64,000 nt of DNA, taken from positions 310,001 to 374,000 of the forward strand of contig NZ_FNTJ01000003.1 of NCBI RefSeq assembly GCF_900105185.1, written 5' to 3'. Positions 86-59,764 of this stretch are shown here, in pieces. The notes beneath the pieces were generated by a model, which worked only from the letters and a program-made list of their open reading frames with translations, did not search any database and was not told the origin of the DNA. This stretch comes from Pseudomonas saponiphila. GTDB taxonomy: Bacteria; Pseudomonadota; Gammaproteobacteria; Pseudomonadales; Pseudomonadaceae. The position numbers and the translations under genes were made by a program. The stretch's first letter is position 1; the number at the start of each line of letters is the position of its first letter.

Positions 86-118
86 CAATGATCACTCCAG
101 CCACTGAGTGCCAGTAGG
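86..118 (-). promoter_or_regulatory. repeated promoter element, copy 1
   Basis: Core CTACTGGCACT with TGATCATTG at the standard distance (one mismatch in the core: T for G after CAC). Heads the gene running off the left edge. Confidence 0.75.
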
Positions 119-163
119 GGGAATTGCGGTGTTTTCCTTCTATGGCGGCAGTCATTCCAGGCA

Positions 164-190
164 AACAAAAAGGGCCGGCAGTGCCGGCCC
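164..190 (-). terminator. intrinsic terminator after the 211-648 gene
   Basis: Minus-strand stem GGGCCGGC/GCCGGCCC (172-179 with 183-190), then a T-rich run. Ends the 1074-to-211 operon just before the next promoter element. Confidence 0.85.
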
Positions 191-210
191 TGTGGCGGAT
201 CTCACGCCGC

Positions 211-648
211 TTAGAATTCGTCGCGGGTGAGGTTGTAAGCGAACCCGCCGACGATGATCCCGACCAGAACGATCGCGTACATCCAGTCACTGGCGTACCA
301 GGCCATGTCGGAGGCCGATTCCAGCTCCGGCAGCCGCTCGAACAGTACGTCCATGGAGTGAGGGGTATTGCGGCCCCACGCTTCCAGTACCGAGAAGAAA
401 CTGTCCCACACCATGGCTAGGGCAAAGGGCCAGACCACCCCAATGCGGAAGACCGGTTTGTAGGTATTCATCGACTGGTAGTACCACGCGGCGGCGAGCA
501 AGAGGACCCCGCCAACAGCCCCGCGCATGGCGTCGATGCCGTCAGTGAAGGAACTGGCGAACCCAACCTTCTGAGTAATGATGAGCCCCAAGGTTAGGAC
601 GGCGGCCGCGATGACGGCGATGGCAAAGCCTGTGTAGGTCTTGTACAT
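211..648 (-). CDS. small integral membrane protein, unknown
   Basis: 145 residues with hydrophobic segments at about 7-27, 43-57, 69-85 and 121-137, so probably four membrane spans, with a short charged tail ending TRDEF. The start has AGGAG six bases upstream. It is the second gene of an operon with 661-1074 (13-base gap) and is followed by an intrinsic terminator. I do not recognise a family; the inner membrane is the likely location. Confidence 0.8.
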   Translation of the reverse strand: MYKTYTGFAIAVIAAAVLTLGLIITQKVGFASSFTDGIDAMRGAVGGVLLLAAAWYYQSMNTYKPVFRIGVVWPFALAMVWDSFFSVLEAWGRNTPHSMDVLFERLPELESASDMAWYASDWMYAIVLVGIIVGGFAYNLTRDEF

Positions 649-660
649 GGTTTCTCCTGC

Positions 661-1074
661 TTAGTTGGTTGCCAGGCTTTTAGCCTGAATCAGCCGCGAC
701 TGCATTTCCGAAAAAGGCAGGTCGCGTAGATGACGGTCTGGGCTTACGGCCTTATACAGGTCGTCGCCGGTAAATTCATTCCGGTACCGGTCAGCGTAAC
801 GGGAACCGACCAGGGCCATTTCCACTTGAACAGCCTTGCTGGCGATCACCACCACGCAAGCATCGAGCTTGGTGTTGGTTTCGAGATACGCCGCGGCCAT
901 CGAGTCAGCGGGGTCAATGGCTGCGTAGAAGCGGCCAGTCAGAAACTCCCCGGAGTCAGTGGTCAGATGCCCGGCCAGCGGGCGAGGGGCATTCATCACC
1001 ACCCAGCTCGGATCAACATCAAACGGAAGTTTGTCGGTCACTCGGGATTTGATCGCTGCTAAGGCCTGCTGCAT
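661..1074 (-). CDS. hypothetical protein
   Basis: 137 residues from the ATG at 1074, which has GGAG nine bases upstream. An in-frame ATG at 1113 lies upstream of the -10-like part of the promoter element and is rejected. The protein looks soluble and mixed alpha/beta, with no motif I recognise. First gene of a two-gene operon with a membrane protein. Confidence 0.75.
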   Translation of the reverse strand: MQQALAAIKSRVTDKLPFDVDPSWVVMNAPRPLAGHLTTDSGEFLTGRFYAAIDPADSMAAAYLETNTKLDACVVVIASKAVQVEMALVGSRYADRYRNEFTGDDLYKAVSPDRHLRDLPFSEMQSRLIQAKSLATN

Positions 1075-1101
1075 GTTGCGGATCTCCTGTTTAGGTTGGA
1101 G

Positions 1102-1134
1102 ATAGCGTCTCATCCCTCAGTGCGTGCCAACACA
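1102..1134 (-). promoter_or_regulatory. repeated promoter element, copy 2
   Basis: Core TGTTGGCACG, then GACGCTAT. Its -10-like part lies 28 bases before the start of the 661-1074 gene. Confidence 0.75.
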
Positions 1135-2637: not shown

Positions 2638-3432
2638 TTATGCGCTACGCTGCTGATAGCCTTCCTGCATGAGCAGTTCACGGATGGACGCAGTGCGAGT
2701 TGATTCGAGCATGTGAGCTTTTACCCCCCTGGTCCTGGCGATCTTGGCCAGCCTTGAGCGCAGCCAGGTGGCGTCTGATGAAAAATGCGCCGTGGGGTTG
2801 TTCGATGTCAGGTGATGCATTTTCTCAGCGAGCTGCGGGTTGATTTCGACCCGCCCGAGAATGTGAAAGTCGTGATGCGAGAGGGTGGCGCAATCCTCCG
2901 CAGACATCGCGGCCAGGTTCGAGGGGATACCCGCGCAGAAGCGGTTGGTGCCCAAAATTGCGATCCCGCGATTGAGCAGTTCTCCCGCGCTCAGTTCACC
3001 GCATTGCAGCGGAAGCACGACCCTCGCCCCGCACTCAATCCAGGCCGTGATCACGCCTTTGTGTCGATCCCAGCAGGCGAGGGTGGCCTCTTGGTTGCCG
3101 ATGACATCAGGAGCCACGATGGTTAGATTCTCTGGGCGCTCGGTGCGGTCGATCAGTCCTTCGTACACGGAGAAGACCCGGCCCCAATCCACTGAATCGC
3201 CCTTGGTGAATGCGGTGAAAGCGCCGCTGTCGACGAAAACCTTGCATCCTTGGTCCAAGGCACGGGGAAGCCCGAACAACCGTTTACCCAGCGGAATTCG
3301 TGTAGCGACCACACCTACCGGGAGCCCGGCAGTCAGAGCTGCCGAGAGGTCTTGCTCGGCAGACATGCCGGAGTGAAAGGCAATATCCCAGCCCTCAAAT
3401 GCAGCCGCTTGGAAAAGGGAGGCTTGTTCCAT
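2638..3432 (-). CDS. TIM-barrel protein, possibly TGT/DpdA-like
   Basis: 264 residues. VFVDSGAFTAF, NLTIVAPDVIG, VVLPLQCG and FCAGIPSNL are regularly spaced strand-end motifs, as in TIM barrels of the tRNA-guanine transglycosylase/DpdA group, where DSG(G/A)F marks the substrate site. This is resemblance by eye, not proof; no zinc site is obvious. The ATG at 3432 has GGAG nine bases upstream; an ATG at 3531 lies beyond the promoter element. Single-gene unit. Confidence 0.55.
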   Translation of the reverse strand: MEQASLFQAAAFEGWDIAFHSGMSAEQDLSAALTAGLPVGVVATRIPLGKRLFGLPRALDQGCKVFVDSGAFTAFTKGDSVDWGRVFSVYEGLIDRTERPENLTIVAPDVIGNQEATLACWDRHKGVITAWIECGARVVLPLQCGELSAGELLNRGIAILGTNRFCAGIPSNLAAMSAEDCATLSHHDFHILGRVEINPQLAEKMHHLTSNNPTAHFSSDATWLRSRLAKIARTRGVKAHMLESTRTASIRELLMQEGYQQRSA

Positions 3433-7682: not shown

Positions 7683-7708
7683 GACACTGTACAGGTATAC
7701 AGTGTCAG
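7681..7708 (+). promoter_or_regulatory. LexA (SOS) box
   Basis: CTG-N10-CAG at 7687-7702, embedded in a longer near-perfect palindrome that starts CTGACACTGT and ends ACAGTGTCAG. It matches the proteobacterial LexA consensus and overlaps the predicted transcription start, so umuDC should be SOS-induced. Confidence 0.9.
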
Positions 7709-7710
7709 CA

Positions 7711-8142
7711 ATGCGTGCAGATCTCATAGGCCAATTCGCCTCCGACCAATCGATTCCCCTCCCTTTCGGCGGGCAGGCAAGCTGCGGGTTTCCGTCGCCG
7801 GCCGCCGACTACCAGGAGCCGGACCTGTCTCTCGATCAGCTGGTCGGCATCACTCCCACGTCCTCGATCTTCCTCTTTCGCGCCTGGGGCAACTCCATGA
7901 TGGGCGCGGGCATCCATGACGGTGACGTTCTGGTCGTGGACAAGGCAAAGCAGGCGCAGCCGGGGAATGTGGTTCTTGCCGTGGTTGGTGCTGAGTTTCT
8001 CGTTAAGCGTCTTCAGGTAGACGGGCAGGGCAGGGCGATGCTGGTAGCGGAGCACGAGGGGTACGCACCTATCGTGCTGGTCGAGGATGAGATACTGGAA
8101 GTCTGGGGGGTGTGTCGCTGGGTCCTGCACGGGCTTGACTGA
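7711..8142 (+). CDS. umuD: UmuD-type polymerase V accessory subunit
   Basis: 143 residues, S24 peptidase fold. It carries the RecA-triggered self-cleavage site Cys25-Gly26 (QASCGFPSP), the nucleophile Ser62 (GNSMMGAG) and the general base Lys99 (FLVKRL), so autoprocessing to UmuD' should work. UmuD' joins UmuC in the error-prone polymerase V. The ATG at 7711 is preferred over a GTG at 7702 that lies in the LexA palindrome. The stop overlaps the umuC ATG by one base. Confidence 0.95.
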   Translation: MRADLIGQFASDQSIPLPFGGQASCGFPSPAADYQEPDLSLDQLVGITPTSSIFLFRAWGNSMMGAGIHDGDVLVVDKAKQAQPGNVVLAVVGAEFLVKRLQVDGQGRAMLVAEHEGYAPIVLVEDEILEVWGVCRWVLHGLD

Positions 8143-9419
8143 TGGGCCTCCACCGTCCGGTTATAGCCCTCATCGACTGCAACTCGTTCTATTGCAGTGC
8201 CCAGACCCTGTTCGAACCCTGGTACCGCGATAAGCCGGTAGCCGTCGCGAGCAACAACGATGGCAGCATCGTGAGCCGCAACGATGCGGCGAAGGCGCTT
8301 GGCCTGAAAATGGGGCAGCCGGTGTTCGAACTGAAGGACATGATCGCGAGAAACGAGGTCAAAATTTATTCCTCGAATTACGCGCTGTACCAGTCGATCA
8401 GTAACCGAATCATGGCAGTTCTCGAAGAGCTTTCGGCAGAAATAGTCCCCTACAGTATTGATGAATGTTGGTCGGATCTCACTGGCGTGCCTGACCCGGA
8501 GGCCTGGGGTAGAAATGCCCGAGATGAGATCCAGCGGCGGCTGGGCATGCCGGTGGGGGTCGGTATAGGCCCAACCAAGACTCTCGCCAAACTGGCCAAC
8601 TGGGCGGCGAAGAAATGGAAAGCCAAGACCGGCTGCGTCGTCGACCTGAGAGACCCGGTGAAGCAGGAGAAGCTATTGCGCTATGCGCCGGTCGAAGAGG
8701 TCTGGGGAATAGGCCGCCAGCTCAGCGCCAGGCTCAAGGCGGACCTCAACATTCACACTGCCTGGCAACTCGCGACGGCTGATCCCAAGCACATTCGCCG
8801 GCAGTTCAGCGTGAACGTCGAGCGCACGGCCCGCGAGCTAAAGGGCCTTCCCTGCTTTCCTTTCGTCGATGGCAGCCCCGAACGCAAGCAGCAGATAATT
8901 TGTTCCCGATCTTTTGGGTCGAAAGTATTCGCTCTCGAAGAGATGGAATCGGCGGTGACCGCATTCGCCAGCACGGCGGCTGGGAAGCTCCGGGCTCAGG
9001 ACAGCCTCGCCAACTGCGTCCAGGTGTTTGCCAGGACCAGCCATTTCGCCGGCGGCGAGCAGTACGGCGCAAGCCGGATCATGGCTATGCCTTACCCGAC
9101 ATCCGACACCAGAGACATAGTGCACGCGGCGCTGACCGGCCTGCGTAGCCTCTACCGGGCCGGGCCGGCCTACGCCAAGGCCGGGGTGGTCCTAACTCAG
9201 TTCGTTGAACGCGGGACAGTCACGGGCGATCTATTCGCCCCGAAGCCGCGTCAGGGCAGCGATGATCTGATGAGAGTGATGGATGCCATCAATGCCAAGC
9301 AGGGTCGGGGTGCGCTCCGCCTGGCCCGAGATACCTCAGCAGGGAAGTGGTCGATGCGACGCGAGATGCTGAGCCCCGCGTACACCACCGCTTGGAAGGA
9401 TTTGCCCAGGGCACGCTAA
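8142..9419 (+). CDS. umuC: UmuC-type DNA polymerase V catalytic subunit
   Basis: 425 residues, the family's normal length. Y-family catalytic motifs are intact: IDCNSFYCSA near the N-terminus and YSIDECW about residues 106-112, giving the metal-binding Asp/Asp-Glu. A helix-hairpin-helix follows (VEEVWGIGRQLSARL). Performs translesion synthesis with UmuD' and RecA. TGATG coupling to umuD makes it an SOS operon of the rumAB/umuDC plasmid type. A convergent gene begins 34 bases downstream. Confidence 0.95.
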   Translation: MGLHRPVIALIDCNSFYCSAQTLFEPWYRDKPVAVASNNDGSIVSRNDAAKALGLKMGQPVFELKDMIARNEVKIYSSNYALYQSISNRIMAVLEELSAEIVPYSIDECWSDLTGVPDPEAWGRNARDEIQRRLGMPVGVGIGPTKTLAKLANWAAKKWKAKTGCVVDLRDPVKQEKLLRYAPVEEVWGIGRQLSARLKADLNIHTAWQLATADPKHIRRQFSVNVERTARELKGLPCFPFVDGSPERKQQIICSRSFGSKVFALEEMESAVTAFASTAAGKLRAQDSLANCVQVFARTSHFAGGEQYGASRIMAMPYPTSDTRDIVHAALTGLRSLYRAGPAYAKAGVVLTQFVERGTVTGDLFAPKPRQGSDDLMRVMDAINAKQGRGALRLARDTSAGKWSMRREMLSPAYTTAWKDLPRAR

Positions 9420-11924: not shown

Positions 11925-11957
11925 GCAATGTAGGTCGATGCAGTTCGTGCCAGCAGA
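11925..11957 (-). promoter_or_regulatory. repeated promoter element, copy 11
   Basis: Core CTGCTGGCACG, then TACATTGC. Drives 11893-11388. Confidence 0.75.
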
Positions 11958-11963
11958 GGCAGC

Positions 11964-35533: not shown

Positions 35534-35566
35534 CAATCTTCAAGGTGGCAGGTGCGTGCCGGTAGA
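35534..35566 (-). promoter_or_regulatory. repeated promoter element, copy 23
   Basis: Core CTACCGGCACG (one change), then GAAGATTG. Drives the ligase gene; the second IS begins 68 bases upstream. Confidence 0.75.
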
Positions 35567-35627
35567 TCAGGAGATGCCGGGCCAGAGGGATGTTCAGGCC
35601 GCAATTCCAGAGACGAATGACAGGGTG

Positions 35628-47485: not shown

Positions 47486-47550
47486 TCGCAGCGATGGGTC
47501 ATTCACACTTCAAGCCCGAGCTTTAGCCTCCAATTCGCGCAACCCCAGAA

Positions 47551-47576: not shown

Positions 47577-47585
47577 CTCCGGCGC

Positions 47586-48605: not shown

Positions 48606-48691
48606 AGACACTCCCTTGAGCTGGTAAGTAGGTCGGCCAACACGCTTGGCCTATCGTGATCGTAACGGGGGGAATTGGCCGCCTTGCGGGC

Positions 48692-48931: not shown

Positions 48932-48939
48932 GTTCGGGT

Positions 48940-49122: not shown

Positions 49123-49160
49123 CTCTTGCTCCAAAATTGCTGAAAGTTCTGATTCCTTTC

Positions 49161-49940: not shown

Positions 49941-50046
49941 GAACACGGTGCAGAGTCCCTGAAAAATGGATTGATAGGGTACAGAGGCAGGCCGGTTAAG
50001 GCCCGCCAAGTAGGGGGTGTGAAATCGTCTTGTTGCGATGCCGCGC

Positions 50047-50364
50047 TTAGGCGGCCGGGGAGTAGGGAACGATGCGATCAAGCTCGGGGTAGAACTTGTC
50101 GTAGAAGCTCTTTTTCCGGTCCTTGGCTATCCAGCTACCACCAGGGCATGCCGTGGCGAATGCGGTGATGCTGGAGAAGAAGTTGCCGATGGAGACCATT
50201 TCAGTCCCTTTCTTCGGGTCTCGCGCCACACACGTCACCCAGCGGCCGGCAACGACATCGATGACCTCGAACCAGATCGAGCAGCTGCCGTGGCGAACGA
50301 ACCAGCCCGGCTGGACGCCAAGGCTCTCAGGGGTGTCGTTGGGGGTCGGATTGATGATCACCAT
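50047..50364 (-). CDS. hypothetical protein
   Basis: 105 residues from MVIINPTP, GAGGG upstream. Strand-rich (IWFEVIDVVAGRWVTCVARD), then a basic helix. No family recognised. Confidence 0.7.
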   Translation of the reverse strand: MVIINPTPNDTPESLGVQPGWFVRHGSCSIWFEVIDVVAGRWVTCVARDPKKGTEMVSIGNFFSSITAFATACPGGSWIAKDRKKSFYDKFYPELDRIVPYSPAA

Positions 50365-50374
50365 GATTCGGCCC

Positions 50375-50791
50375 TCAATCACGGATAGCGTTGGCGGCTT
50401 GCGTCATGCGATCAACCAACTCCTGACCGATGCACCGCACGGCTGTGGGAGTGAGTTCGAATATATCTGCGCACTGACCAGTAATCTCGTGATGCTCGCT
50501 GCGGGAATTCGCTTGAGCTATGCGCTCAATGAAGTAGGCCGCCCCTGCGGCGATGCCACCCTCAACAACAGCGCCAAACAGACCCTCGCGATGGTCGCCA
50601 TTGAGGATAAGGAACACGCGGCCACCCAGCACCAGCGCCGTGGTATGGCAGCCGTAATCCCTGGAGCTGGGGTTGTAGCTGACATAGCTGCCATCAATCG
50701 CCTTGGTGGTCGAATTGATGGAGCGCTGGCACAAGCCGGGAATCTCATGATTGCGGAAGGCGTTGCGGGCGGTGGTGGCTGTCTGGCTCAT
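50375..50791 (-). CDS. hypothetical protein, ILNGDHR family
   Basis: 138 residues. SYVSYNPSSRDYGCHTTALV, then LGGRVFLILNGDHREG, parallels the 100-residue protein at 6665. The extra C-terminal part has a helix and Cys. GAGGA upstream. First gene of a unit under copy 30. Confidence 0.75.
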   Translation of the reverse strand: MSQTATTARNAFRNHEIPGLCQRSINSTTKAIDGSYVSYNPSSRDYGCHTTALVLGGRVFLILNGDHREGLFGAVVEGGIAAGAAYFIERIAQANSRSEHHEITGQCADIFELTPTAVRCIGQELVDRMTQAANAIRD

Positions 50792-50833
50792 GTCGGTGTC
50801 CTCTGAGGTCCGGTTGAATTGCGTTGATGGGGG

Positions 50834-50866
50834 TCATCATCGAGCAACCGGGTGCGTGCCAGCAGA
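50834..50866 (-). promoter_or_regulatory. repeated promoter element, copy 30
   Basis: Core CTGCTGGCACG, then GATGATGA. Confidence 0.85.
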
Positions 50867-50953
50867 GGGAGAGCAGGAAAAGCCCCGATTCGAACGCGCC
50901 GCCCCCCGGAGAAGGGATTTCACTCCCACTCTCCGGCGGCGAAGGCAATCAGG

Positions 50954-51295
50954 CTAGGCGGGGAAGTCGACCATGGACCGGCGTTGGCAGCCCTTTTGGT
51001 AGAGGCCTGGCTGAAGCTCGCAGATCAAGCCACCGATCTCTTGGGCGTTTGCCTGGCAGTACCCCATCTTCAGGAGCTGGCGCACGACATCCGTTTCCCG
51101 GACGGGTACTGCTTTCAGGCCCAGAAACCCTGCGGCAAAGTTCATGCTCAGTCGCCGGGCAATCCAGTCGGCCAACTCGTCTGCGACATTGACGGCGAAA
51201 TTGCGGATGCGAAGCAGGTGATGCGCCTCGCACGGGGTGACCCAGAGCGGAAGGCCGGCCTTGGCGTAGGCCCGGCTTACGGATGATTTGACCAT
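50954..51295 (-). CDS. helical hypothetical protein
   Basis: 113 residues; helices (DELADWIARRLSMNFAAGFLG; VRQLLKMGYCQANAQEI). AGGAG upstream. Last gene of the 53214 operon; a GC-rich stem (50896-50941) follows. Confidence 0.7.
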   Translation of the reverse strand: MVKSSVSRAYAKAGLPLWVTPCEAHHLLRIRNFAVNVADELADWIARRLSMNFAAGFLGLKAVPVRETDVVRQLLKMGYCQANAQEIGGLICELQPGLYQKGCQRRSMVDFPA

Positions 51296-51318
51296 CGAGC
51301 TATCTCCTGAGTGTGGAT

Positions 51319-51342
51319 GGCCCAGCCTGAAGCGACTGGGCC
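51319..51342. repeat. inverted repeat
   Basis: GGCCCAG/CTGGGCC with a 10-base loop between 51365 and 51295; no T run. Confidence 0.5.
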
Positions 51343-51364
51343 ATGCTGCCGGGGTGGTGGCGGG

Positions 51365-52240
51365 TTAGATGAACTCAACCAAGTAGCCAAGGCTTTCAGC
51401 GTACTGGCGGGCGCGCTTGAAGCTCTCCAGCTCGCGGATGTCGTTCACGCCATCCGGTGCCTCGTCGTCGTAGTAGGTGTTGCCGACCCAAACCCAGTTT
51501 TCGTAGAAACACTTCACCAGAGTTGGGCGATCAACATAGGCCTTGAGCTTGATGCGCAGTGCACCGTCTTCGTCTGCTGTGGCGTCCAGGGAGCAGGTGG
51601 GGAACGTCCGACGATCAACGCCGGCGCAAAGGCCAATCGCTTCATAGGCAATGGCTTCGCGGCGGGTGGGCAGATCGGTTTCGTCGCGGTGGTAAACCAT
51701 GGCGATTCTCATGGCGTCCGGCATGGCCAGCTTGCCCGGCAGGTCGATCAGACCCTCTACCTGCCCTGAAGAGCCGATAAGGGGTTCGATGTCCTTCGCC
51801 GAAGGGTAATACTCGGTCAGGTAGCTGGGGCCGGCACCATCTGGCTTGCGCTCTGCAACGCGCAGATAGCGTTGGCCAGACACCCCGGAGAATGAGATCA
51901 GAATCTCGGCCTCCGAGTGTGCGTGCTGGATAGTCCGCACGTTTCCGGTCGAGTCGAAGAACAGGCCCGCGTTGATGCCGGCCACGCTGATTGGCAGCAA
52001 GCTCAGGTCAACCAGTCCCGGTGGGATAGGGCGTTGCAACTTGTCCTCGCACACGAAGCTGGCGCTTGCATCGCAGTAGGAGCACTTGCAGCAGGTCATG
52101 AGCGAGGTCAGGTCGAAGTCGATACCACCTACAGGCACGAGATTCGGGCGCGAACCATCAGGGCGTTGGTTGACGTAGGCTTCGCAGACGCCGCTTACGG
52201 TCAACTCCAGCGACCCACACTCCGGGCATTTCCAGTTCAT
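51365..52240 (-). CDS. zinc-ribbon-containing hypothetical protein
   Basis: 291 residues. N-terminal CPECGS and CCKCSYCDAS form a zinc ribbon (about 5-60). A large strand-rich part follows, with several GG/DG turns, and a C-terminal helix. Role unknown. Confidence 0.75.
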   Translation of the reverse strand: MNWKCPECGSLELTVSGVCEAYVNQRPDGSRPNLVPVGGIDFDLTSLMTCCKCSYCDASASFVCEDKLQRPIPPGLVDLSLLPISVAGINAGLFFDSTGNVRTIQHAHSEAEILISFSGVSGQRYLRVAERKPDGAGPSYLTEYYPSAKDIEPLIGSSGQVEGLIDLPGKLAMPDAMRIAMVYHRDETDLPTRREAIAYEAIGLCAGVDRRTFPTCSLDATADEDGALRIKLKAYVDRPTLVKCFYENWVWVGNTYYDDEAPDGVNDIRELESFKRARQYAESLGYLVEFI

Positions 52241-52488
52241 TGCGCTTGCTCCTGAGTAGATTCAGCCTTGCTCACGATGTCGTTATTGCTCTCGCGGCCG
52301 GCTTGCAGGCGACCGCTCTTGTGCCAGCGGTCTTCGGTACCGCAATTGGCATAGGTGCCAACGCAGCCGAAGTCATGACGGCTGGAGGCCTTGCTGACGG
52401 TGACGGTCTCGCCGCAGCGGGTGACGTAATCGCCGGGCTCGTCGACTACGACGGGCAGGTTCACGAAGGCGGCAAAGTAGGCGCTCAC
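52237..52488 (-). CDS. hypothetical protein
   Basis: 83 residues from a GTG with GAGGAA upstream. YVTRCGETVTVSKASSRHDF, then GCVGTYANCGTEDRWHKSG: a small Cys/His domain that may bind metal. Overlaps the next start (ATGA). Confidence 0.65.
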   Translation of the reverse strand: MSAYFAAFVNLPVVVDEPGDYVTRCGETVTVSKASSRHDFGCVGTYANCGTEDRWHKSGRLQAGRESNNDIVSKAESTQEQAQ

Positions 52489-52498
52489 GGGGATTCCT

Positions 52499-52690
52499 CT
52501 AAATGCGATTGAATGCGACGGACACAAAGTCATCGACCTGAAGACCGCATTGCTCCGCGATCTTGCGCTTCGAGTTTTCAAACACACTCTCGGCAGACGG
52601 CCTGAAAAAGCTGCGCACGGTGATAACGCCCGAAGCGTGGACATCAGAGCCCTTGAGCTTCACAGCGATGAAGTAGTGGCGCTTGATCAT
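52499..52690 (-). CDS. small hypothetical protein
   Basis: 63 residues; strand-rich (HYFIAVKLKGSDVHASGVITV), then a helix. AAAGGA upstream. Confidence 0.7.
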   Translation of the reverse strand: MIKRHYFIAVKLKGSDVHASGVITVRSFFRPSAESVFENSKRKIAEQCGLQVDDFVSVAFNRI

Positions 52691-52711
52691 GGGGTGGAGT
52701 CCTTTAGCCGA

Positions 52712-52945
52712 TCAGCATTCTTTCTGTTGAACCGTTTGCCCAGCAGGAGTGATCTCCTGGCTCCCCAGCTGTTGAGGGGGACGAAAAGCTTCAAGAAACC
52801 CGTACATGAAGCACCAAGCCGTCAGCCAAACCGTGACCAGCTTTAGCGCGGAAGAAATGGACGAAGGCTCTGTGGCAACAGCAGTGAAAAAATCCAGAAC
52901 CAGCAGGGAAAACCAAAAGGCAATCCATTTATTAGTCGTGAACAT
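52712..52945 (-). CDS. small membrane protein
   Basis: 77 residues; spans at about 6-26 and 34-55, then a Gln-rich tail. AAGGAAA upstream. Confidence 0.7.
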   Translation of the reverse strand: MFTTNKWIAFWFSLLVLDFFTAVATEPSSISSALKLVTVWLTAWCFMYGFLEAFRPPQQLGSQEITPAGQTVQQKEC

Positions 52946-52986
52946 CTCTATTTCCTTCTTTCGGAGTAATGGTTGGGGATGACGGC

Positions 52987-53214
52987 TTAGCCGGCCACCA
53001 GCTCGTGGTAGTTCAGCTTGTGCTCGCGCAGGGCTTCCTCAGCCGCCTTCTGCGCGGCCCGTGCCTCGATCTTCTCAGCGAGGGTGACCAGCGTGCTCAC
53101 ACGCGACTTGGCGCGGGTGATAGCGCCCTTTAAGCGGGTGGCTTCCTTCTTCCACTGGGCATCAGTCATCTTCTGATTGCCAGTTACCAGTGCTTGGGCT
53201 TGGATTGCGCTCAT
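52987..53214 (-). CDS. helical charged protein
   Basis: 75 residues, nearly all helix (KKEATRLKGAITRAKSRVST; EKIEARAAQKAAEEALREHK). First gene of a six-gene operon under copy 31. Confidence 0.7.
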   Translation of the reverse strand: MSAIQAQALVTGNQKMTDAQWKKEATRLKGAITRAKSRVSTLVTLAEKIEARAAQKAAEEALREHKLNYHELVAG

Positions 53215-53247
53215 CTCGGTGTTCCTGTGTGTTGTTTCGAAGTGAGG

Positions 53248-53280
53248 CCATCATCGCCTTGGAGGATGCGTGCCAGCAGA
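53248..53280 (-). promoter_or_regulatory. repeated promoter element, copy 31
   Basis: Core CTGCTGGCACG, then GATGATGG. Around it about 45 bases match copy 32 almost exactly. Confidence 0.85.
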
Positions 53281-53285
53281 TGGGG

Positions 53286-53350
53286 TGAAAGAAAATCTCG
53301 CGAGGGGGCCGGTCAGAAGCAACTCGCTTCACCCTCCAACATCGGCCCCC
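53286..53350 (-). terminator. possible ter­minator with long loop
   Basis: Minus-strand stem GGGGGCCG/CGGCCCCC around a 31-base loop, then a T-rich run. Ends the 53884 unit. Confidence 0.55.
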
Positions 53351-53369
53351 AATCAGGTTGCTTGGATGA

Positions 53370-53612
53370 CTACGCGCAGCGCGGCTCGCACTGGCAGTGG
53401 TTCATGGTGGAGCCGGCAGGGTTGCGCAGGTACTCACGGCTTTGACGCAGCATCTGGGCAACGTCGGAAGGCGCGACCCTGGTACCGCAGGCATAGACCG
53501 GGTTCGTGCCCATCAGCCAGTTCACGCGCTTCTCATGGTGGGCTTTGTCGGCGCGGCGCTGGGCATCGGCCATGGCTTTAGCGTTGCTGGTGCTGGTGCT
53601 CTGAGTGGTCAT
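53370..53612 (-). CDS. small basic protein
   Basis: 80 residues; Ser/Thr repeat at the start (TTQSTSTSN), basic helix (AQRRADKAHHEKRV), two late Cys (HCQCEPRC). GGGGGAA upstream. Confidence 0.7.
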   Translation of the reverse strand: MTTQSTSTSNAKAMADAQRRADKAHHEKRVNWLMGTNPVYACGTRVAPSDVAQMLRQSREYLRNPAGSTMNHCQCEPRCA

Positions 53613-53626
53613 CGGTGTTCCCCCTG

Positions 53627-53884
53627 TTATTTCATGCGGCGCATGTTGGGCATCGGCTTCAGCCGGAGAATCTCGTGGCGCAATTCGAGGATGGTGTTGT
53701 TCATCATCATGATCAGCGCCTCGACGGTCGGCTCATCGCTGCGCACAACCATGCCAGCCATCATGGCCAGCTCGCGGGTATCGCAGCCGAGTAAGTGCTT
53801 GAGCTTGTCCAGCAGGGCAAGGTCACTCCCGGTCGGGGTGACGGACGCTTTCGGCTTGGCCTTGGTGGTTTTGTCTGCGCTCAT
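53627..53884 (-). CDS. small helical protein
   Basis: 85 residues; basic N-terminal tail, helices (LDKLKHLLGCDTRELAMMAG; IMMMNNTILELRHEILRLK). First gene of the unit under copy 32. Confidence 0.7.
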   Translation of the reverse strand: MSADKTTKAKPKASVTPTGSDLALLDKLKHLLGCDTRELAMMAGMVVRSDEPTVEALIMMMNNTILELRHEILRLKPMPNMRRMK

Positions 53885-53917
53885 TTCGGTGTGCCTCTTG
53901 GCTGTTTCGAAGTGAGG

Positions 53918-53950
53918 CCATCATCGCCCTGGTGGATGCGTGCCAGCAGA
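53918..53950 (-). promoter_or_regulatory. repeated promoter element, copy 32
   Basis: Core CTGCTGGCACG, then GATGATGG. The region to +25 is nearly identical to copy 31. Confidence 0.85.
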
Positions 53951-53998
53951 GGGTGCGGGTTTATTTCATCCGCTCGGTTGGGTGCCGAACTTGGTTGC

Positions 53999-54760
53999 TC
54001 AACAGTCCCGTACTTCGCACACGCCTTCGGCCAGCCGGATGCCGTCTGCGCGCTTAGCCGCCTCGGCATCGACATGTCTTACCAGGGCACTGAGGCGCAT
54101 GGCTTTGGCTTCGGTGCTGTAATCGAGTTCCAGTTCGCTGAGTTCGACGGCTACCGCCAGCGCCCGTGCCCTCGCGGAGGGGAGTGCTTGCTTGATGCGG
54201 TCTATGCAGTAGAAGCCGGCCCCGAGGTCATGCCATGTCACCACGTCGTAGGTGAAACCAACTTCGCATGGGGCGCACCGGCCTAGGGCTGCCTCCCAAT
54301 CACACTCCCTGGCGTCCCATTCCTCTTGGGAAACCTCGGCGGGGCGATCGGTCGAATTCTGGTACCCGTAGCGTTCAAACCCGAGATCGAGCAGCGAATC
54401 GATGTAGCCGCAATCGCGCTCGATGAAGTACAGGGCGAGCAGGTCGCCCTGGTGAGGGATAAGGGTGATGGAGAGTGTGCAGTCCCAGTCGACGCTACGG
54501 ATGCTCTTGCCCAGCACCTCTGCCTTGGCGGCGAAGAAGTCCGTTTGGGCTCGCATGTAGGGGCTTGAACCTGACGCCGGCTTGAGAGGGCAGTAATTCT
54601 CGGCCAGATCGGCGGCGAATGCCATGCGCGTGGCAATGCCGGAGGCGATGGCTTTCGCGCCTGCCTCCACGCATGCCGGGCGGATGCTCCGAAGCTTTGC
54701 CAGTGCCTGCTCCAGCGTGCAGTTACGCAGACGCAGGCCGTTGTAAATCTTCGTGCTCAT
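53999..54760 (-). CDS. hypothetical protein
   Basis: 253 residues from MSTKIYNG, GAGGG upstream. Helical and strand regions with Cys near the middle (YCPLKP; GRCAPCEVGF). C-terminal helices. No family recognised. Follows 54786-55337. Confidence 0.75.
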   Translation of the reverse strand: MSTKIYNGLRLRNCTLEQALAKLRSIRPACVEAGAKAIASGIATRMAFAADLAENYCPLKPASGSSPYMRAQTDFFAAKAEVLGKSIRSVDWDCTLSITLIPHQGDLLALYFIERDCGYIDSLLDLGFERYGYQNSTDRPAEVSQEEWDARECDWEAALGRCAPCEVGFTYDVVTWHDLGAGFYCIDRIKQALPSARARALAVAVELSELELDYSTEAKAMRLSALVRHVDAEAAKRADGIRLAEGVCEVRDC

Positions 54761-54785
54761 GGCATCCCTCGCTGAATGGCCGCTG

Positions 54786-55337
54786 TTAGCTGGCTGCTGC
54801 CAGTGCGCCGGTGCTGGTGCTGGTGCGGCGCTTGAGCATTTCCAGTACCTGATCACGAATCAGGGCGCGCTCTGCGTGTGCGGCCTCATTGCGGGTCTTG
54901 AAGGTGAAGTCACCCTCTTCGTGCAGGGCAGATCGACGCGGGTCGCAGACGACCCTCCACTTGCCGTCCTCGTAGTTGTTGCTGACGCAGCCGCAGCCAC
55001 CGCTGATGTGGGAAATGCCGTGGACATACCAGCCACCATGACGCCAGCGGGTGAACATGGGCTCCCAATTCGGGTCTTCAGAGATCGCCTCGGTGACGTT
55101 CATGACCCGGCTGTGGGCGAATTCGGCGCTGCCGTTGACGAAACCTACGCGGGCCTCCAGCAGGACCGGCTTGTCGTAGGCCGTGCCGTGCAGCACTTTG
55201 ATCAGGAGGCCATCTTCCTCGAACCACGGCTCGTCGGAGAGGTAGCCGTAGCCGAAATGGCCTGCCTTGAAGCGTTTGTCGGCTTCCTGGATGCGGGCGG
55301 CCAGCAGGGTTGCGTCAGTCTTTTGTGCAGTGCTCAT
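54786..55337 (-). CDS. hypothetical protein
   Basis: 183 residues; helices, an aromatic strand (RWRHGGWYVHGISHISGGCG) and an STST-type repeat near the C-terminus (RRTSTSTG). GGAGC upstream. First gene under copy 33. Confidence 0.75.
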   Translation of the reverse strand: MSTAQKTDATLLAARIQEADKRFKAGHFGYGYLSDEPWFEEDGLLIKVLHGTAYDKPVLLEARVGFVNGSAEFAHSRVMNVTEAISEDPNWEPMFTRWRHGGWYVHGISHISGGCGCVSNNYEDGKWRVVCDPRRSALHEEGDFTFKTRNEAAHAERALIRDQVLEMLKRRTSTSTGALAAAS

Positions 55338-55368
55338 CGGGTTAGCTCCAGCTGTTGAGTTGATGGGC

Positions 55369-55401
55369 TTATGTTCCCCTGAGCCTTTGCGTGCCAGCAG
55401 A
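55369..55401 (-). promoter_or_regulatory. repeated promoter element, copy 33
   Basis: Core CTGCTGGCACG, then GAACATAA. Confidence 0.85.
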
Positions 55402-55437
55402 TCTGATCGGCACGCCAGGCAATCAAGGGCGAAGCCA

Positions 55438-55611
55438 TCACGCCACGCGGCGGAATCGCGTCAGGTGTTCAACCGAGCTTTCATGGCTGCGGGTCAGGCG
55501 GGCTTGGCAGTAGGCAAGCCAGCTCACTTTAAGTGCCCGGAGCTCGTCGAGCTGCTCATCGGTGACCTTGGCGATGCGGCCCTTGCTGATGATCTCGGTG
55601 TTCATGGCCAT
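55438..55611 (-). CDS. 57-residue helical protein
   Basis: MAMNTEIISKGRIAKVTDEQ, then helices and a basic end RFRRVA. AAAGGA upstream. Probably co-transcribed with 55685 and 56030. Confidence 0.7.
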   Translation of the reverse strand: MAMNTEIISKGRIAKVTDEQLDELRALKVSWLAYCQARLTRSHESSVEHLTRFRRVA

Positions 55612-55684
55612 GGCTGTCGTCCTTTGCGGGTCTATGTTCGGTGCCGACTTGTGCCGGCTGTCGAGGTGTTCGGTACCGGGCCGA

Positions 55685-56011
55685 TCAGAACAGGGTCATC
55701 TGGCCTTTGAACGGGCCAATCTCGATGTGGTGCGAGTTCGGCCCCAAGAATCCGGCCTCAACCATCGCTCGCTCACACTCTTCCACGGTTTCGAAGCCTG
55801 CCGCCTCGTGGGCCTTGTCCGTCGCCAGCAGAATCCAGTCCCCAAGCGCGGACTCGAAGGCACCGACATACATGCGATGGCCGCCATACGCCTTCCAGCC
55901 GGCCTGGAACGGGCGATCGGGTGAAACCCGGAAGAAGGCCAGTGCTTCGAGTGAAGGCGCAGCCAGGGGCATTGCAGGGGTGCTGGCGCTGGTTTGGCTG
56001 TAGAGGTTCAT
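55685..56011 (-). CDS. hypothetical protein
   Basis: 108 residues; STP-rich start, a strand region (MYVGAFESALGDWILLATDK) and a helix (TVEECERAMVEAGF). AAGGAAG upstream. Confidence 0.7.
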   Translation of the reverse strand: MNLYSQTSASTPAMPLAAPSLEALAFFRVSPDRPFQAGWKAYGGHRMYVGAFESALGDWILLATDKAHEAAGFETVEECERAMVEAGFLGPNSHHIEIGPFKGQMTLF

Positions 56012-56029
56012 GCGGCGGCTTCCTTGCGC

Positions 56030-56275
56030 TTAGGCGATGGCGGCATTGGTGAACAGGGCTTTGTCGCTCGGGTGGGCACCGTTGCGGATGGCTGCCAGGC
56101 GTGCCTTCGCTTGGGCCTTGATGCGGATACGTTCCTCAACCGAGAGGGCATTCCAGTCGCGGGTTTCCTCGACGGTACGGCCGCAGGTGGCACACACGTA
56201 ATCGCCCACGCTCTGGGTGCAGCGGCCAGCGCAGGGGTTTGCTTCAGGCTGGTTGCGGTTACCGAGGATGCTCAT
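56030..56275 (-). CDS. DUF1289-like protein
   Basis: 81 residues. NPCAGRCTQSVGDYVCATCG, then RTVEETRDWNALSVEERIRI is the DUF1289 pattern (C-x3-C...C-x2-C-G-R-T-x2-E-x3-W), thought to bind a metal or cluster. First gene of a three-gene unit under copy 34. Confidence 0.8.
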   Translation of the reverse strand: MSILGNRNQPEANPCAGRCTQSVGDYVCATCGRTVEETRDWNALSVEERIRIKAQAKARLAAIRNGAHPSDKALFTNAAIA

Positions 56276-56309
56276 GGTTGACTCCGTGGGTGTTCGTTTC
56301 GACTTGGGT

Positions 56310-56342
56310 TCATTGTGCGTCCACTGAATGCGTGCCAGCAGG
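56310..56342 (-). promoter_or_regulatory. repeated promoter element, copy 34
   Basis: Core CTGCTGGCACG, then CACAATGA. Confidence 0.8.
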
Positions 56343-56353
56343 TCAAATGCCCA

Positions 56354-56632
56354 TCATGAAAACCACCCGTTCACGGCCCATGTGATGCCCTGAAACCGGC
56401 ATGCTTCCAGCCCGAGGTTCGGCCCCCAATTCGCGGCGTAGGAAAAGCCCGCAATCGCCCAGGCCTGCCGCTCGGCAAACCACCACACTCCCCTGAAAGG
56501 CCGCTCTTGCTGTGCTTCGTGCTGTTGGGCTGGTGCCGCGCGGAGAACGAGTTCGTTGAGGCGGTACCGGTGACGAGTGAGTGATAGGCGGGCGGGCGCT
56601 TCGTAGGCCAGTCCGCAAACCAACTTCGGCAT
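56354..56632 (-). CDS. aromatic-rich hypothetical protein
   Basis: 92 residues; rich in Trp/Phe (RGVWWFAERQAWAIAGFSYA). The reading frame was chosen because its content looks like a folded protein and it abuts the upstream gene by 9 bases; two other frames are open too. No strong ribosome site. Confidence 0.55.
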   Translation of the reverse strand: MPKLVCGLAYEAPARLSLTRHRYRLNELVLRAAPAQQHEAQQERPFRGVWWFAERQAWAIAGFSYAANWGPNLGLEACRFQGITWAVNGWFS

Positions 56633-56641
56633 CGATAGGGG

Positions 56642-56923
56642 TTACGGGGCAGGGGTTGCAGCGAGGGAGTCGGTACCGCTCTTGGTGATCTCGACATCCA
56701 TGTTGAACTTGGTGTCGAGGATCTGCCTGGACTTCTCGCTCACCTTGCCGCCCTCAAAACGCACTGTGCACTGCGCTACCTTGGCGCGAAACCCTCGCCA
56801 TGACCCACGCACAACGGGCAGCCACTCTTTCGCTGCCGCACGGGAGGGATAGGGCTTACCGACACGCATCCAGCCTTTGATCGGGTGCTGCACCATGGTG
56901 AAGAACACTGTCTGCTTTTCCAT
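56642..56923 (-). CDS. hypothetical protein
   Basis: 93 residues, basic; strands (VFFTMVQHPIKGWMRVGKPY), a helix, then strands. AGGAGG upstream, strong. Confidence 0.75.
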   Translation of the reverse strand: MEKQTVFFTMVQHPIKGWMRVGKPYPSRAAAKEWLPVVRGSWRGFRAKVAQCTVRFEGGKVSEKSRQILDTKFNMDVEITKSGTDSLAATPAP

Positions 56924-56984
56924 CCATCAACCTCCTGTCCAGGCCTGCGGCCAATTGGCGTCTTGGCGTCTGATGATTTGCCCC

Positions 56985-57017
56985 CAGAGATAGGCTCCGA
57001 TATCGCGTGCCTAAAAC
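56985..57017 (-). promoter_or_regulatory. repeated promoter element, degenerate copy
   Basis: TTTAGGCACG keeps GGCACG; the downstream part (TATCTCTG) is a poor match. Upstream of 56923-56354. Confidence 0.4.
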
Positions 57018-57025
57018 CTGCGGGC

Positions 57026-57054
57026 AAAAAAATCCCGCCAAGGGGGAAGGCGGG
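57026..57054 (-). terminator. intrinsic terminator
   Basis: Minus-strand stem CCCGCC/GGCGGG, then ATTTTTTTG. Ends the 58018 gene. Confidence 0.85.
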
Positions 57055-57148
57055 AAAAGGTACAGCTCTACACAGAACCACTTGAGTGGATGATCAGGAT
57101 AACAATCAGGTCAGGGGTGTCATCCCAATATGGCTTCGTGAAACACGC

Positions 57149-58018
57149 TTACCGGCGAGCCATGCGTACAGAGCTGGCTACGCGCCCATCCGGGGTGTAG
57201 GTCCGGCGTTCCAGCATGTTCCGGTTGATCTGCTGATAGCTGACCATGCCGCCATCGTCACACTCTGTGGGCTCCTGAAACCCGGCAAGGCTCATGCTGC
57301 CACTGGTCATGAAGGCGAACCGGCTGCGGCCGGAGCAGTAGTTGTCCTCGAACTCGGTGAAGCTTTCGCCGTCCTGGGCCAGTCGAACGTAGATCGTGGA
57401 GCGCGGGCCGCCATATTTGCCGCCCAACTCTGCTTCCCAATCGCCAACCAAGTTATCGGGTACCGGTACTACGCTAGGGCGCAATGAACCCTCCCCGGTG
57501 ACCTGGCCATCGCTGATCGTGCGCAGCAGCACACTCCCATCGCGCTGTGGCTTCACGGCCAACTGCTCAGACGGTACGCACTGGCCTTCCGCATCCTCGT
57601 AGACGTGCTCGACGAACGTCATGGAGTCACCGTAGTAGCTGCGTACTGCCTTCAGGTTGGAAGCGCACGCAACGTCCGGGTAGCTGGCATGGGAGAAGCG
57701 GCCATCCAGGAGTGTGAGCATGACGGTATAGCCGCCATTCGCCGTCCGAACTTGGCCGGCGTACAGGTCACCGGGATTGCCGGGGCTCACTCTCCGGGTG
57801 CGGACCATCGGGCGATCGGCACTCCGGGTATTGGTGCGGGCGCTGGTGCTGGTGCTGCGCTGGCCGGATGCCTCACCATCAGACGGCAATCCCAACAGGA
57901 CCTTACCGGCCATCTCAGCTGCACCGTCTCCGATGCTACTCAGGGGGCTATTGGTACCGCAGCCACTGAGCAGGAATGCCAGTACCAGAGGGATTGTCAG
58001 GGAAGCATGGCGGTTCAT
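57149..58018 (-). CDS. lipoprotein
   Basis: 289 residues from MNRHASLT, AAAGGA upstream. Lipobox LSGC at about 18-21. A low-complexity Ser/Thr/Arg linker (about 55-80) precedes a strand-rich domain with several Cys. Function unknown; envelope location. Confidence 0.8.
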   Translation of the reverse strand: MNRHASLTIPLVLAFLLSGCGTNSPLSSIGDGAAEMAGKVLLGLPSDGEASGQRSTSTSARTNTRSADRPMVRTRRVSPGNPGDLYAGQVRTANGGYTVMLTLLDGRFSHASYPDVACASNLKAVRSYYGDSMTFVEHVYEDAEGQCVPSEQLAVKPQRDGSVLLRTISDGQVTGEGSLRPSVVPVPDNLVGDWEAELGGKYGGPRSTIYVRLAQDGESFTEFEDNYCSGRSRFAFMTSGSMSLAGFQEPTECDDGGMVSYQQINRNMLERRTYTPDGRVASSVRMARR

Positions 58019-58076
58019 TGGTTGCATCCTTTCGCGATTTAACACCGGCTCTGCGGGAGTGTGGTGGGGCTTACCC

Positions 58077-58448
58077 TCAATTCTGCCCGAGCAGGAGGTT
58101 TACGGGCAGGGCGATAGCGGCCTTGGCCTTCTCTACCTGATCCTCCGAGCCAAAGCATCCGAGCTGGACAGTAACCCCGCCAAAGGTCTTGGCACTCAAG
58201 GTCAACTCAACGGACTGGCAGTATCCGCTGGCACTGTGGATGTCGCTTGCAGCGTGCTCCGGGACTGCGCCTGCCGATTCATCATCACCACTGAAGCGGA
58301 CATGAGACTGCTCCAGTTCCTGATAGGTGAAGCCATCACCGACCGGACGGCTGAGAATCTGGTCCTCGTCGTCACAGGAGATCTCAAGGGTGACATCCAC
58401 TTCGAAGGTGGACGGGTCGATCAGGTCGAGGGGCAGTGCGTTGGTCAT
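58077..58448 (-). CDS. acidic hypothetical protein
   Basis: 123 residues, strand-rich and acidic (VDVTLEISCDDEDQILS), Cys-containing. First gene of a two-gene unit with the lipoprotein, under copy 36. Confidence 0.75.
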   Translation of the reverse strand: MTNALPLDLIDPSTFEVDVTLEISCDDEDQILSRPVGDGFTYQELEQSHVRFSGDDESAGAVPEHAASDIHSASGYCQSVELTLSAKTFGGVTVQLGCFGSEDQVEKAKAAIALPVNLLLGQN

Positions 58449-58481
58449 GGCGTTGGTTCCTGCTGATGTCTGAAAGTGAGG

Positions 58482-58514
58482 CCATCTTCAGTTAGAGCAA
58501 TGCGTGCCAACAGA
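58482..58514 (-). promoter_or_regulatory. repeated promoter element, copy 36
   Basis: Core CTGTTGGCACG, then GAAGATGG; shares the transcribed GCCTCACTTT stretch with copies 31 and 32. Confidence 0.85.
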
Positions 58515-58526
58515 TGCAGGCCTGTA

Positions 58527-59705
58527 TCAAACCGACATGGGTGCCCCATGAATCTCGGGGGCCATTGGTAGAGGCGCTATCACGGACTGACCGCGCATCA
58601 GTTCTTCCTCGTCAAAGTCATCCAGGGGACGCCGGCGAACCTCCGGAGTAGGCAAGGGCTTATCTCCCACAAGATCGAGCCGCTCAAGTGCTTCCTTCTC
58701 GGCGCTGATATAGGCCTCAAAGTTCGGCTCCGAATCTTCCAGGATGTCTGCCAGCGCCAAAACCCAGTTTTTGAACGCCCAGACCGTCTCGATATCCACG
58801 TACCGACCCGCAACATAGTGGCCAGACAGGGAGAGTGTGAGTGATTCCTTGTCGGTAAGCGGGCGACTTTGCCGGGTAAGCCGGTACGCCGGGCCTGCAT
58901 GCTGCTTCAGGCGGCGGTTAATCGTGCCCAGGTGCTCCGTATTGGCGTGATCCTCCAAGATTCCGGCAAGCCACTGGATCTCACGGAAGACGTTGCGCCA
59001 GGCGCTTTCCGATACCTGTTGGGCGGCGCGTTTACGGCTTTCCAGTAGAGCCACGAACCCAGCACCGTCGATGCCCTCGAAAATCTTCCGGCGAACCTCA
59101 TTTTCCAAATACAGGCGGAGTGTGCTGGTCAGCATCCTCGGGATGTCGTAACGCATGCCGCCCGAGATCATGGCGTCAAATCGCTCTCCCAGTTCGGTAC
59201 CGGGCTCAAGCGTCCGGTGATCCATGAGATGGGTGATCTGGAGTGTGAGAGCTTCGGCACACCGATAGTTGTCCTCAAGGCACTGAACCAAAAGGTCGAC
59301 AGTGATCGCGCCTGAAGCCCATTCGAGAGGCATGCGGGCTGTTTTGCCGGCCAAGGCCTTAGCCTGGTGGTTAAAGCTCGATAGCCCTTGTGGGTGACTC
59401 CAGAGGGCCTGGAAGGCGATGTCGCCGATGCGATCCCGGAGCACGCCACTTTGGGTCTCGGCGAAGGCCCGCGCACTAGCCACCCAAGGAGCAGCCTCGA
59501 ACAGCCTCCCCATCCAGAAGTGCTGGGAACGGCTGTATGCCCCGTTCCGGCCGGCAGGCAGTGCAAACCAGCCGGCCTCCACCGCCGACGCGATAAAGCT
59601 CCCTGCCTCGCAAAGGCCTGCTGAAGCCACCGCATCCCCTTGAACCGCCTTGCTGACCAGACCAAACAGGTCGCGGCGGCGAAGGTGCTGCATCAATTCG
59701 ATCAT
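58527..59705 (-). CDS. large helical hypothetical protein
   Basis: 392 residues from MIELMQHLRRR; a GTG at 59717 is possible. Helical throughout, with an acidic, Pro-rich end. No recognised motif. Single-gene unit under copy 37. Confidence 0.75.
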   Translation of the reverse strand: MIELMQHLRRRDLFGLVSKAVQGDAVASAGLCEAGSFIASAVEAGWFALPAGRNGAYSRSQHFWMGRLFEAAPWVASARAFAETQSGVLRDRIGDIAFQALWSHPQGLSSFNHQAKALAGKTARMPLEWASGAITVDLLVQCLEDNYRCAEALTLQITHLMDHRTLEPGTELGERFDAMISGGMRYDIPRMLTSTLRLYLENEVRRKIFEGIDGAGFVALLESRKRAAQQVSESAWRNVFREIQWLAGILEDHANTEHLGTINRRLKQHAGPAYRLTRQSRPLTDKESLTLSLSGHYVAGRYVDIETVWAFKNWVLALADILEDSEPNFEAYISAEKEALERLDLVGDKPLPTPEVRRRPLDDFDEEELMRGQSVIAPLPMAPEIHGAPMSV

Positions 59706-59731
59706 GGGAGAGCCCACTTACTGAACATGCC

Positions 59732-59764
59732 TACATTTTGCCCGCCCTGCTACGTGCCACCAGG
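59732..59764 (-). promoter_or_regulatory. repeated promoter element, copy 37
   Basis: Core CTGGTGGCACG, then AAAATGTA, weaker in the second part. Confidence 0.65.

Follow-up and report, generated by a model that had tools for sequence, protein, structure and literature searches.

What reads a promoter-like element that recurs dozens of times on a Pseudomonas plasmid? We analysed a 64,000-nucleotide stretch of Pseudomonas saponiphila DNA (the window), which comprises bases 310001–374000 of contig C3 (NZ_FNTJ01000003.1; 397,710 bp) in a four-contig genome (GCF_900105185.1; G000). An original prediction had described about 37 copies there (35 clear and 2 degenerate) of CTRCTGGCACG, 13 free bases and GANNMTR. 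Judged by its position and spacing, the repeated element is very probably a promoter, and its likely reader, as far as sequence comparison can tell, is a sigma-70-family protein encoded on C3 itself. We hold with high confidence that the element represents the promoter class of a plasmid-borne alternative sigma factor with a private plasmid regulon, so that on this very large plasmid, as on relatives from Pseudomonas of clinical and environmental origin, dozens of genes appear to run on a transcription signal that the host does not use.

A weight matrix for C3, built up from the window's own sites and used with a reporting threshold of 13 bits, returned 33 sites in the window (range 114 to 58510), and two sites with a 12-base spacer (11331 and 59760) brought the total to 35, in good agreement with the predicted number. 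A box-only scan of the window found 38 boxes and missed the site at 1130. Four boxes were discarded: 15817 and 37305 lie within identical IS21 transposase genes, 3964 has a 12-base spacer and no start codon in range, and 46480 lacks a -10 and is 165 nt from the nearest start. The A and T were correctly placed in 34/38 boxes, 31 of them with a 13-base spacer and three (including the discarded 3964) with 12, bearing out the near-constant spacing that had been claimed. The strict pattern CTGGCACG-N13-GANNMT occurred 18 times in the window compared to 0.03 expected from shuffles, and CTRCTGGCACG-N13-GANNMT occurred 16 times in the window and 28 times on C3. The predicted promoters, in window coordinates, are as follows.

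88..119, minus strand, promoter with GATCAT, 28.2 bits
1104..1135, minus strand, promoter, 27.5 bits
2594..2625, minus strand, promoter before a gene (2362-2565) that is HicA-like by PADLOC, 20.4 bits
3461..3492, minus strand, promoter before gene 2638-3432 (weak queuine tRNA-ribosyltransferase match, phrog_887), 27.9 bits
4711..4742, minus strand, promoter, 27.4 bits
6110..6141, plus strand, promoter, 32.7 bits
6602..6633, plus strand, promoter whose target has a pQBR103 orthologue that also carries a site, 25.7 bits
10171..10202, minus strand, promoter before an ART-PolyVal gene (9689-10141, PF18760), 34.4 bits
10858..10889, minus strand, promoter, 28.7 bits
11306..11336, minus strand, promoter with 12-base spacer and GATCAT, start codon in range
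11927..11958, minus strand, promoter, 26.5 bits
21682..21713, minus strand, promoter, 37.3 bits
22576..22607, minus strand, promoter, 32.5 bits
23616..23647, minus strand, promoter with degenerate -10 (TCTAAT), 27.2 bits
25351..25382, minus strand, promoter with sites also at the orthologues in pQBR103 and pPma4326F, 38.6 bits
26278..26309, minus strand, promoter, 23.8 bits
28168..28199, minus strand, promoter, 36.3 bits
29871..29902, minus strand, promoter, 22.2 bits
30575..30606, minus strand, promoter, 35.0 bits
32154..32185, minus strand, promoter; orthologues with a site in pPniHBP1_1 and pR31014-IMP, without one in pPma4326F, 27.8 bits
34012..34043, minus strand, promoter, 30.2 bits
35536..35567, minus strand, promoter before a WGR/ATP-dependent DNA ligase gene (34382-35503; PF01068, PF05406), 34.9 bits
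40646..40677, minus strand, promoter, 35.3 bits
41583..41614, minus strand, promoter, 30.0 bits
44170..44201, minus strand, promoter, 27.5 bits
46315..46346, minus strand, promoter, 33.5 bits
46674..46705, minus strand, promoter, 23.9 bits
47455..47486, minus strand, promoter, 29.8 bits
50836..50867, minus strand, promoter, 33.4 bits
53250..53281, minus strand, promoter, 38.3 bits
53920..53951, minus strand, promoter, 35.2 bits
55371..55402, minus strand, promoter, 36.9 bits
56312..56343, minus strand, promoter before a DUF1289 gene (56030-56275, PF06945), 33.4 bits
58484..58515, minus strand, promoter, 37.2 bits
59735..59765, minus strand, promoter with 12-base spacer and CAAAAT, before a 392-aa gene (58527-59705), from the box scan

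Over the whole of C3, 63 matrix sites scored above 13 bits (33 of them inside the window; top score 39.1 bits), compared to 0, 5, 1, 4 and 1 in five dinucleotide shuffles of the contig, and 60/63 were clustered at 242-386 kb. A 700-kb scan of the host chromosomes gave 6 weak matches, the best at 15.0 bits. The shuffled and chromosomal scans had been named beforehand as a possible refutation, and the element withstood both. The C3 consensus reads A(T/C)CTRCTGGCACGC, 12 bases and TGANNMTG, with CCATC a few bases on, and can also be written ATCTRCTGGCACGC-N12-TGANNMTG. Taking the final T of GANNMT as -7 places the predicted start close to the conserved CCATC. Using gene starts called throughout by a simple purpose-made caller, and counting a start codon as in range when it lay -40 to 150 nt from the predicted start site, we found a called start in range for 57/63 C3 sites, with the predicted start site 20-29 nt before the codon in 37/57. 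In the 33 boxes for which a start was called, 51-91 bases separate the first C of CTGGCACG from the start codon, with 51-66 bases in 25 of these; the original prediction had given 46-86 bases. Between 280 and 370 kb on C3, a site was present for 45/107 genes with an upstream gap of at least 60 bases vs 2/61 with a smaller gap. Partition, uptake or DNA-binding sites dispersed as a non-promoter signal might also be numerous and concentrated on one side of a plasmid, as these copies are, but the copies are oriented, the box centre is non-coding in 56/63, and most keep a fixed distance to the start codon that follows, making such a signal extremely improbable.

The architecture differs from the two familiar promoter types, as the original prediction had held. 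An RpoD promoter (TTGACA, 16-18 bases, TATAAT) was rejected from the alignment of the sites and from a scan of 40001-59999 in which sigma-70-type promoters occurred at chance level (5 found vs 5.0 in shuffles). A sigma-54 promoter (TGGCAC at -24, TTGC at -12) was rejected from the 63 aligned C3 sites, which have no conserved TTGC at the sigma-54 distance after TGGCAC. The further claim that copies often follow a terminator was not supported in 40001-59999, the part scanned, with 10 terminator-like sites vs 15.3 in shuffles.

C3 carries a sigma-70-family gene (252303-253835, 510 aa) 56 kb outside the window. Region 4 of its product scored 35 bits (PF04545; cut-off 24.1), and in a structural model residues 36-347 align with sigma-70 106-447, the non-conserved region included, at 15-21% identity over the structural alignments. 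The protein is related to RpoD and RpoS, with which it shares region 4; its matches to regions 2 and 3 lie near the cut-off. A separate novel N-terminal domain was ruled out, as the model matches sigma-70 from residue 36 onward. The C3 system differs from RpoD and RpoS in that its element lacks TTGACA and has a long TGGCAC box, and in that full-length proteins of this type occur, among the matches listed, only in Pseudomonas-group plasmids and genomes. A tblastn search with the protein gave at least 80% coverage in 133 plasmid records, and the 60 listed were all from Pseudomonas or Stutzerimonas. Directly after the sigma gene lies a small gene (C3:251973-252272; L013:11973-12272), which overlaps the sigma gene by 4 bases in pPniHBP1_1 and pR31014-IMP and for which BLAST found no relative in pQBR103 or pPma4326F; it is possible that it encodes a partner or an anti-sigma factor.

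To follow the element outside C3, we used the related megaplasmids pPniHBP1_1 and pR31014-IMP (IncP-2 by kinship), picked for the sigma gene, and pQBR103, pPma4326F and a fifth plasmid (W05), picked for another gene; pR31014-IMP and pPma4326F were scanned whole and pPniHBP1_1 and pQBR103 over 400 kb. According to two reports, pQBR103, IncP-2 plasmids and pJBCL41 form one plasmid group with an ancient common backbone that includes chemotaxis and pilus genes (PMC13391042, PMC7070040). Whole-record searches of five megaplasmids found the sigma gene in every one, split in one of them. The gene order in pPniHBP1_1 and pR31014-IMP is PRTRC partition genes, dnaN, sigma and then recA and chemotaxis genes, with the same neighbours on C3; pQBR103 has PRTRC, dnaN and sigma (PQBR_RS02590) in that order. 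A sister motif, GSTTCTGGCAC(A/G)-N13-GANNMT, was present in all four scanned relatives, with 43 sites in pPniHBP1_1, 50 in pR31014-IMP, 100 in pQBR103 and 75 in pPma4326F, compared to 1-8 matrix sites in each of their shuffles. Leaders of 20-29 nt were predicted for 20/33, 20/44, 57/86 and 39/55 sites, respectively. A matrix-independent test gave identical spacing in six plasmids, and unbiased 8-mer counting ranked the box first in pPniHBP1_1, pQBR103 and pPma4326F and outside the top 14 for C3 and pR31014-IMP. At reciprocal-best orthologues of C3 targets, the site was kept in 10/11, 8/11, 9/16 and 9/14 cases in the four relatives, compared to 3/120, 6/128, 8/112 and 5/119 at orthologues of C3 non-targets. 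The sigma gene itself, dnaN and PRTRC E had a site in 5/5 plasmids and ParB in 4/5; in pQBR103 a site lies 96 nt upstream of the annotated ParB start. A second sigma factor, annotated RpoH, is also encoded in the same region of pQBR103 (NC_009444.1 314580-315455), and pPma4326F and W05 each gave a second, weak sigma match. In pNY11382-IMP (NZ_CP097104.1, 17.4-21.6 kb), the sigma gene is broken into pieces, yet 20 exact TTCTGGCAC-N14-SANNMT copies persist; this plasmid offers a natural comparison for expression with one that has an intact sigma gene.

Sigma gene and motif also went together across genomes. CTRCTGGCACG-N13-GANNMT occurred 28 times in the whole G000 genome and no more than once in any of 397 others from the genus; because the genome and C3 totals are both 28, all exact copies are on C3. 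The sigma gene was found in 4/398 genomes, and the C3, GSTTCTGGCAC and TGACACA patterns had, respectively, 28, 0 and 0 exact copies in G000; 0, 33 and 0 in G105; 1, 3 and 0 in G038, where a contig gave 38 matrix matches in 300 kb; and 0, 0 and 22 in G063, with maxima of 1, 2 and 3 in the remaining 394. A chromosomal host sigma factor might instead read the motif, with the plasmid adapted to its host, and candidates are available (24 other Sigma70_r2 matches in the host, 23 above the cut-off). This explanation is very unlikely, however, given the few weak matches on the host chromosomes, the 1-3 chance copies at most in Pseudomonas genomes without the sigma gene and the different boxes in plasmids of one genus. 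On viral contigs, 42 stretches had a single match each to the C3 motif, which we read as chance.

The TGACACA pattern came from the most diverged of the four sigma proteins, that of G063 (33% identity). The known matrices had zero matches on its 17-kb contig, and the GSTTCTGGCAC pattern had zero in G063. We read TGACACA-N13-GAAGATG from the upstream region of this sigma gene and searched the genome for TGACACA-N13-GANNMTG, which gave 22 copies on small contigs, compared to 0 for a reversed control and at most 3 in the 397 other genomes. The recognition helix is SPQNISRMEKKA in the G063 protein vs S-x-ERVRQ in five aligned plasmid sigma factors. Sites paired with a sigma that has Q at the position of sigma-70 Q437 had C as the -12 base in 6/98 cases vs 34/102 with V (Fisher p ~1e-6, uncorrected for shared ancestry). 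The motif and the sigma factor diverged jointly, and the suggestion that a plasmid-encoded sigma might read the element is well supported by a sigma-70-family gene that lies on the same contig and is conserved and diverges together with the motif.

These observations also bear on a third explanation, in which host RpoD reads the -10, a plasmid-coded activator occupies the CTGGCAC box near -30 and the plasmid sigma does something else. MotA works in this manner, with an activator box near -30 at T4 middle promoters. The box is indeed long and centred near -30, and the -10 keeps the A at -11 and the T at -7 that RpoD also requires. Nonetheless, the -12 base varies with a sigma residue, changes in the box coincide with changes in the sigma region 4.2 helix, the sigma gene's own promoter bears the motif in 5/5 plasmids and no candidate activator is known to go with the motif, though no systematic search was made; we consider an activator of this kind unlikely.

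Several results weigh against a dedicated plasmid sigma factor as the reader. Region 2 of the protein is borderline (PF04542; 25.7 bits in one scan, 21.9 vs a cut-off of 24 in another) and region 3 is under its cut-off (PF04539; 23.1 vs 25.3 bits). The conserved box spans ~14 bases (-38 to -25), exceeding the usual -35 of 6-8 bases in length and extending further downstream, and an extra DNA-binding partner is therefore possible. No start was in range for 10/43 sites in pPniHBP1_1, 20/75 in pPma4326F and 6/63 on C3, and some weak sites in the relatives must be false, as their shuffles reach 8 matches. Seven orthologues of C3 targets in pQBR103 and five in pPma4326F lack a site. Orthologous promoters of these two plasmids enter into the -12 counts, which are therefore non-independent, and the joint divergence rests on ~4 lineages, over which any conserved backbone gene would be expected to diverge likewise.

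If a plasmid sigma factor is nevertheless the reader, it would join the host core RNA polymerase and read A(T/C)CTRCTGGCACGC as a -35-type box and GANNMT, with A at -11 and T at -7, as the -10. Transcription would start ~7 bases past the -10, near CCATC, giving leaders of ~25 nt. Because this promoter also precedes the sigma gene itself and its upstream neighbour dnaN, self-amplification would be expected once the system is primed. The regulon would then be a private plasmid programme of partition, sliding-clamp and other DNA-maintenance genes, together with many small genes annotated without a function. SOS control of the sigma gene was rejected: in 5 plasmids no LexA box (at most 2 mismatches) was found beside sigma or dnaN, and within the window the only LexA box lying upstream of a gene is the one at umuD.

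Targets common to five plasmids are dnaN, the sigma gene and PRTRC E, with ParB common to four; the C3 dnaN and ParB copies pass Pfam. C3 sites also precede ssb (PF00436; only 17.0 bits) and a gene that weakly matches methyltransferases and has sites in pPniHBP1_1 and pR31014-IMP too, and pQBR103 sites precede an N-6 DNA methylase gene and, weakly, a DNA ligase gene. Most other targets are small genes, and only 1/20 first genes scanned after window sites passed a Pfam cut-off (DUF1289), so gene content says little about function. Among genes named in the original prediction, the ART-like (PF18760) and ligase (PF01068) assignments were confirmed and the HicA-like one weakly so (PADLOC); no antirestriction domain was found in the target proteins scanned. 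The conserved targets are DNA-maintenance genes (dnaN, PRTRC/ParB), which would fit establishment and equally copy-number or damage control; an establishment programme switched on at entry into a new cell is a guess. The 392-aa gene at 58527-59705 has matches in 135 plasmid records and relatives in many Pseudomonas plasmids. The start of the ligase gene, together with the promoter at 35536..35567, reappears on contig C4 (59.5 kb; L037:1110) and gives one strong site there; this may be a regulon gene on a second contig or an assembly overlap.

Mobile elements are known to put their own promoter class on the host polymerase, as T4 does by means of a phage sigma factor (gp55) and sigma appropriation (MotA/AsiA); C3 resembles these systems in this respect and differs in being a stable plasmid. 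Plasmid sigma factors with plasmid regulons are likewise known. SigN (ZpdN) of Bacillus subtilis pBS32 is reported to be plasmid-coded and weakly ECF-like; it activates its own promoter, has promoters near ATTTACGTTT...AGATATAA and has a LexA-repressed promoter; its regulon lies mainly on the plasmid, with 19 promoters tabulated (two only predicted), DNA polymerase III and gyrase genes included, and none is described there as found in the chromosome (PMC6751061). The C3 sigma is similarly plasmid-coded with sites mostly on the plasmid, as known here from site positions. By contrast, it is RpoD/RpoS-like, its gene is part of the megaplasmid backbone and C3-type sigma and dnaN genes have no adjacent LexA box. 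A SigN-type promoter (TTTACG box, GATATAA) was rejected, the C3 consensus being unrelated. On sequence class, promoter sequence and LexA control, the C3 sigma is thus outside the SigN family. The main texts of PMC13391042 and PMC7070040, on this plasmid group, have 0 occurrences of 'sigma', 'promoter', 'motif' or 'regulon'; in PMC8544851 the sigma and promoter passages retrieved concern other matters, and in PMC9537497 'sigma' is a supplier's name and 'promoter' occurs once. No earlier report of such a sigma factor or regulon in this group was found in open-licence PubMed Central, a search that left most subscription journals and preprints outside.

More broadly, we lean toward the view that private promoter codes operate across this megaplasmid group (IncP-2, pQBR103-like, pPniHBP1_1, C3 and kin). 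Each lineage would have its own RpoD-like sigma and its own -35 box (ATCTRCTGGCACG, GSTTCTGGCAC or TGACACA), changed together, and its dozens of genes for maintenance or of unknown role would be neither expressed in nor influenced by any host or foreign plasmid until their own sigma is made. If so, a stable plasmid would possess an orthogonal transcription system, and plasmid compatibility would gain a new basis. In hospital Pseudomonas, plasmids of the group bear resistance genes, and in soil strains they confer mercury resistance; for most of their genes no role is known. Control of 40-100 promoters by one plasmid-coded switch would account for how the load of such large plasmids could stay quiet, and one deletable sigma gene would provide a handle on hundreds of unknown genes. 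The naturally diverged sigma/promoter pairs are also material for studying the evolution of promoter recognition.

Other features of C3 were recorded. Two identical IS21-type elements (IS1474-like) lie at 14239-16561 and 35727-38049 of the window, the first of which, by eye, splits one gene (13379-14182 and 16919-17257). One element matches pNY11382-IMP at 99.6%, the IS21 transposase has 14 copies on C3, and when 24 kb of the window was compared with plasmids at near-identity DNA level, the 40 records listed out of 77 had solely IS21-element matches. A umuD/umuC-like pair (7687-9419; Peptidase_S24 and IMS) has a one-mismatch LexA-type box directly upstream, so SOS genes under host control may also be present on the plasmid, apart from the sigma regulon. 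On C3 at 303173-306861, a putrescine/spermidine-binding-protein-like gene lies, by eye, in pieces on both strands around promoter sites. A tRNA-Arg (TCT) gene at 40193-40269, the sole match in an Rfam scan, stands amid small unknown genes.

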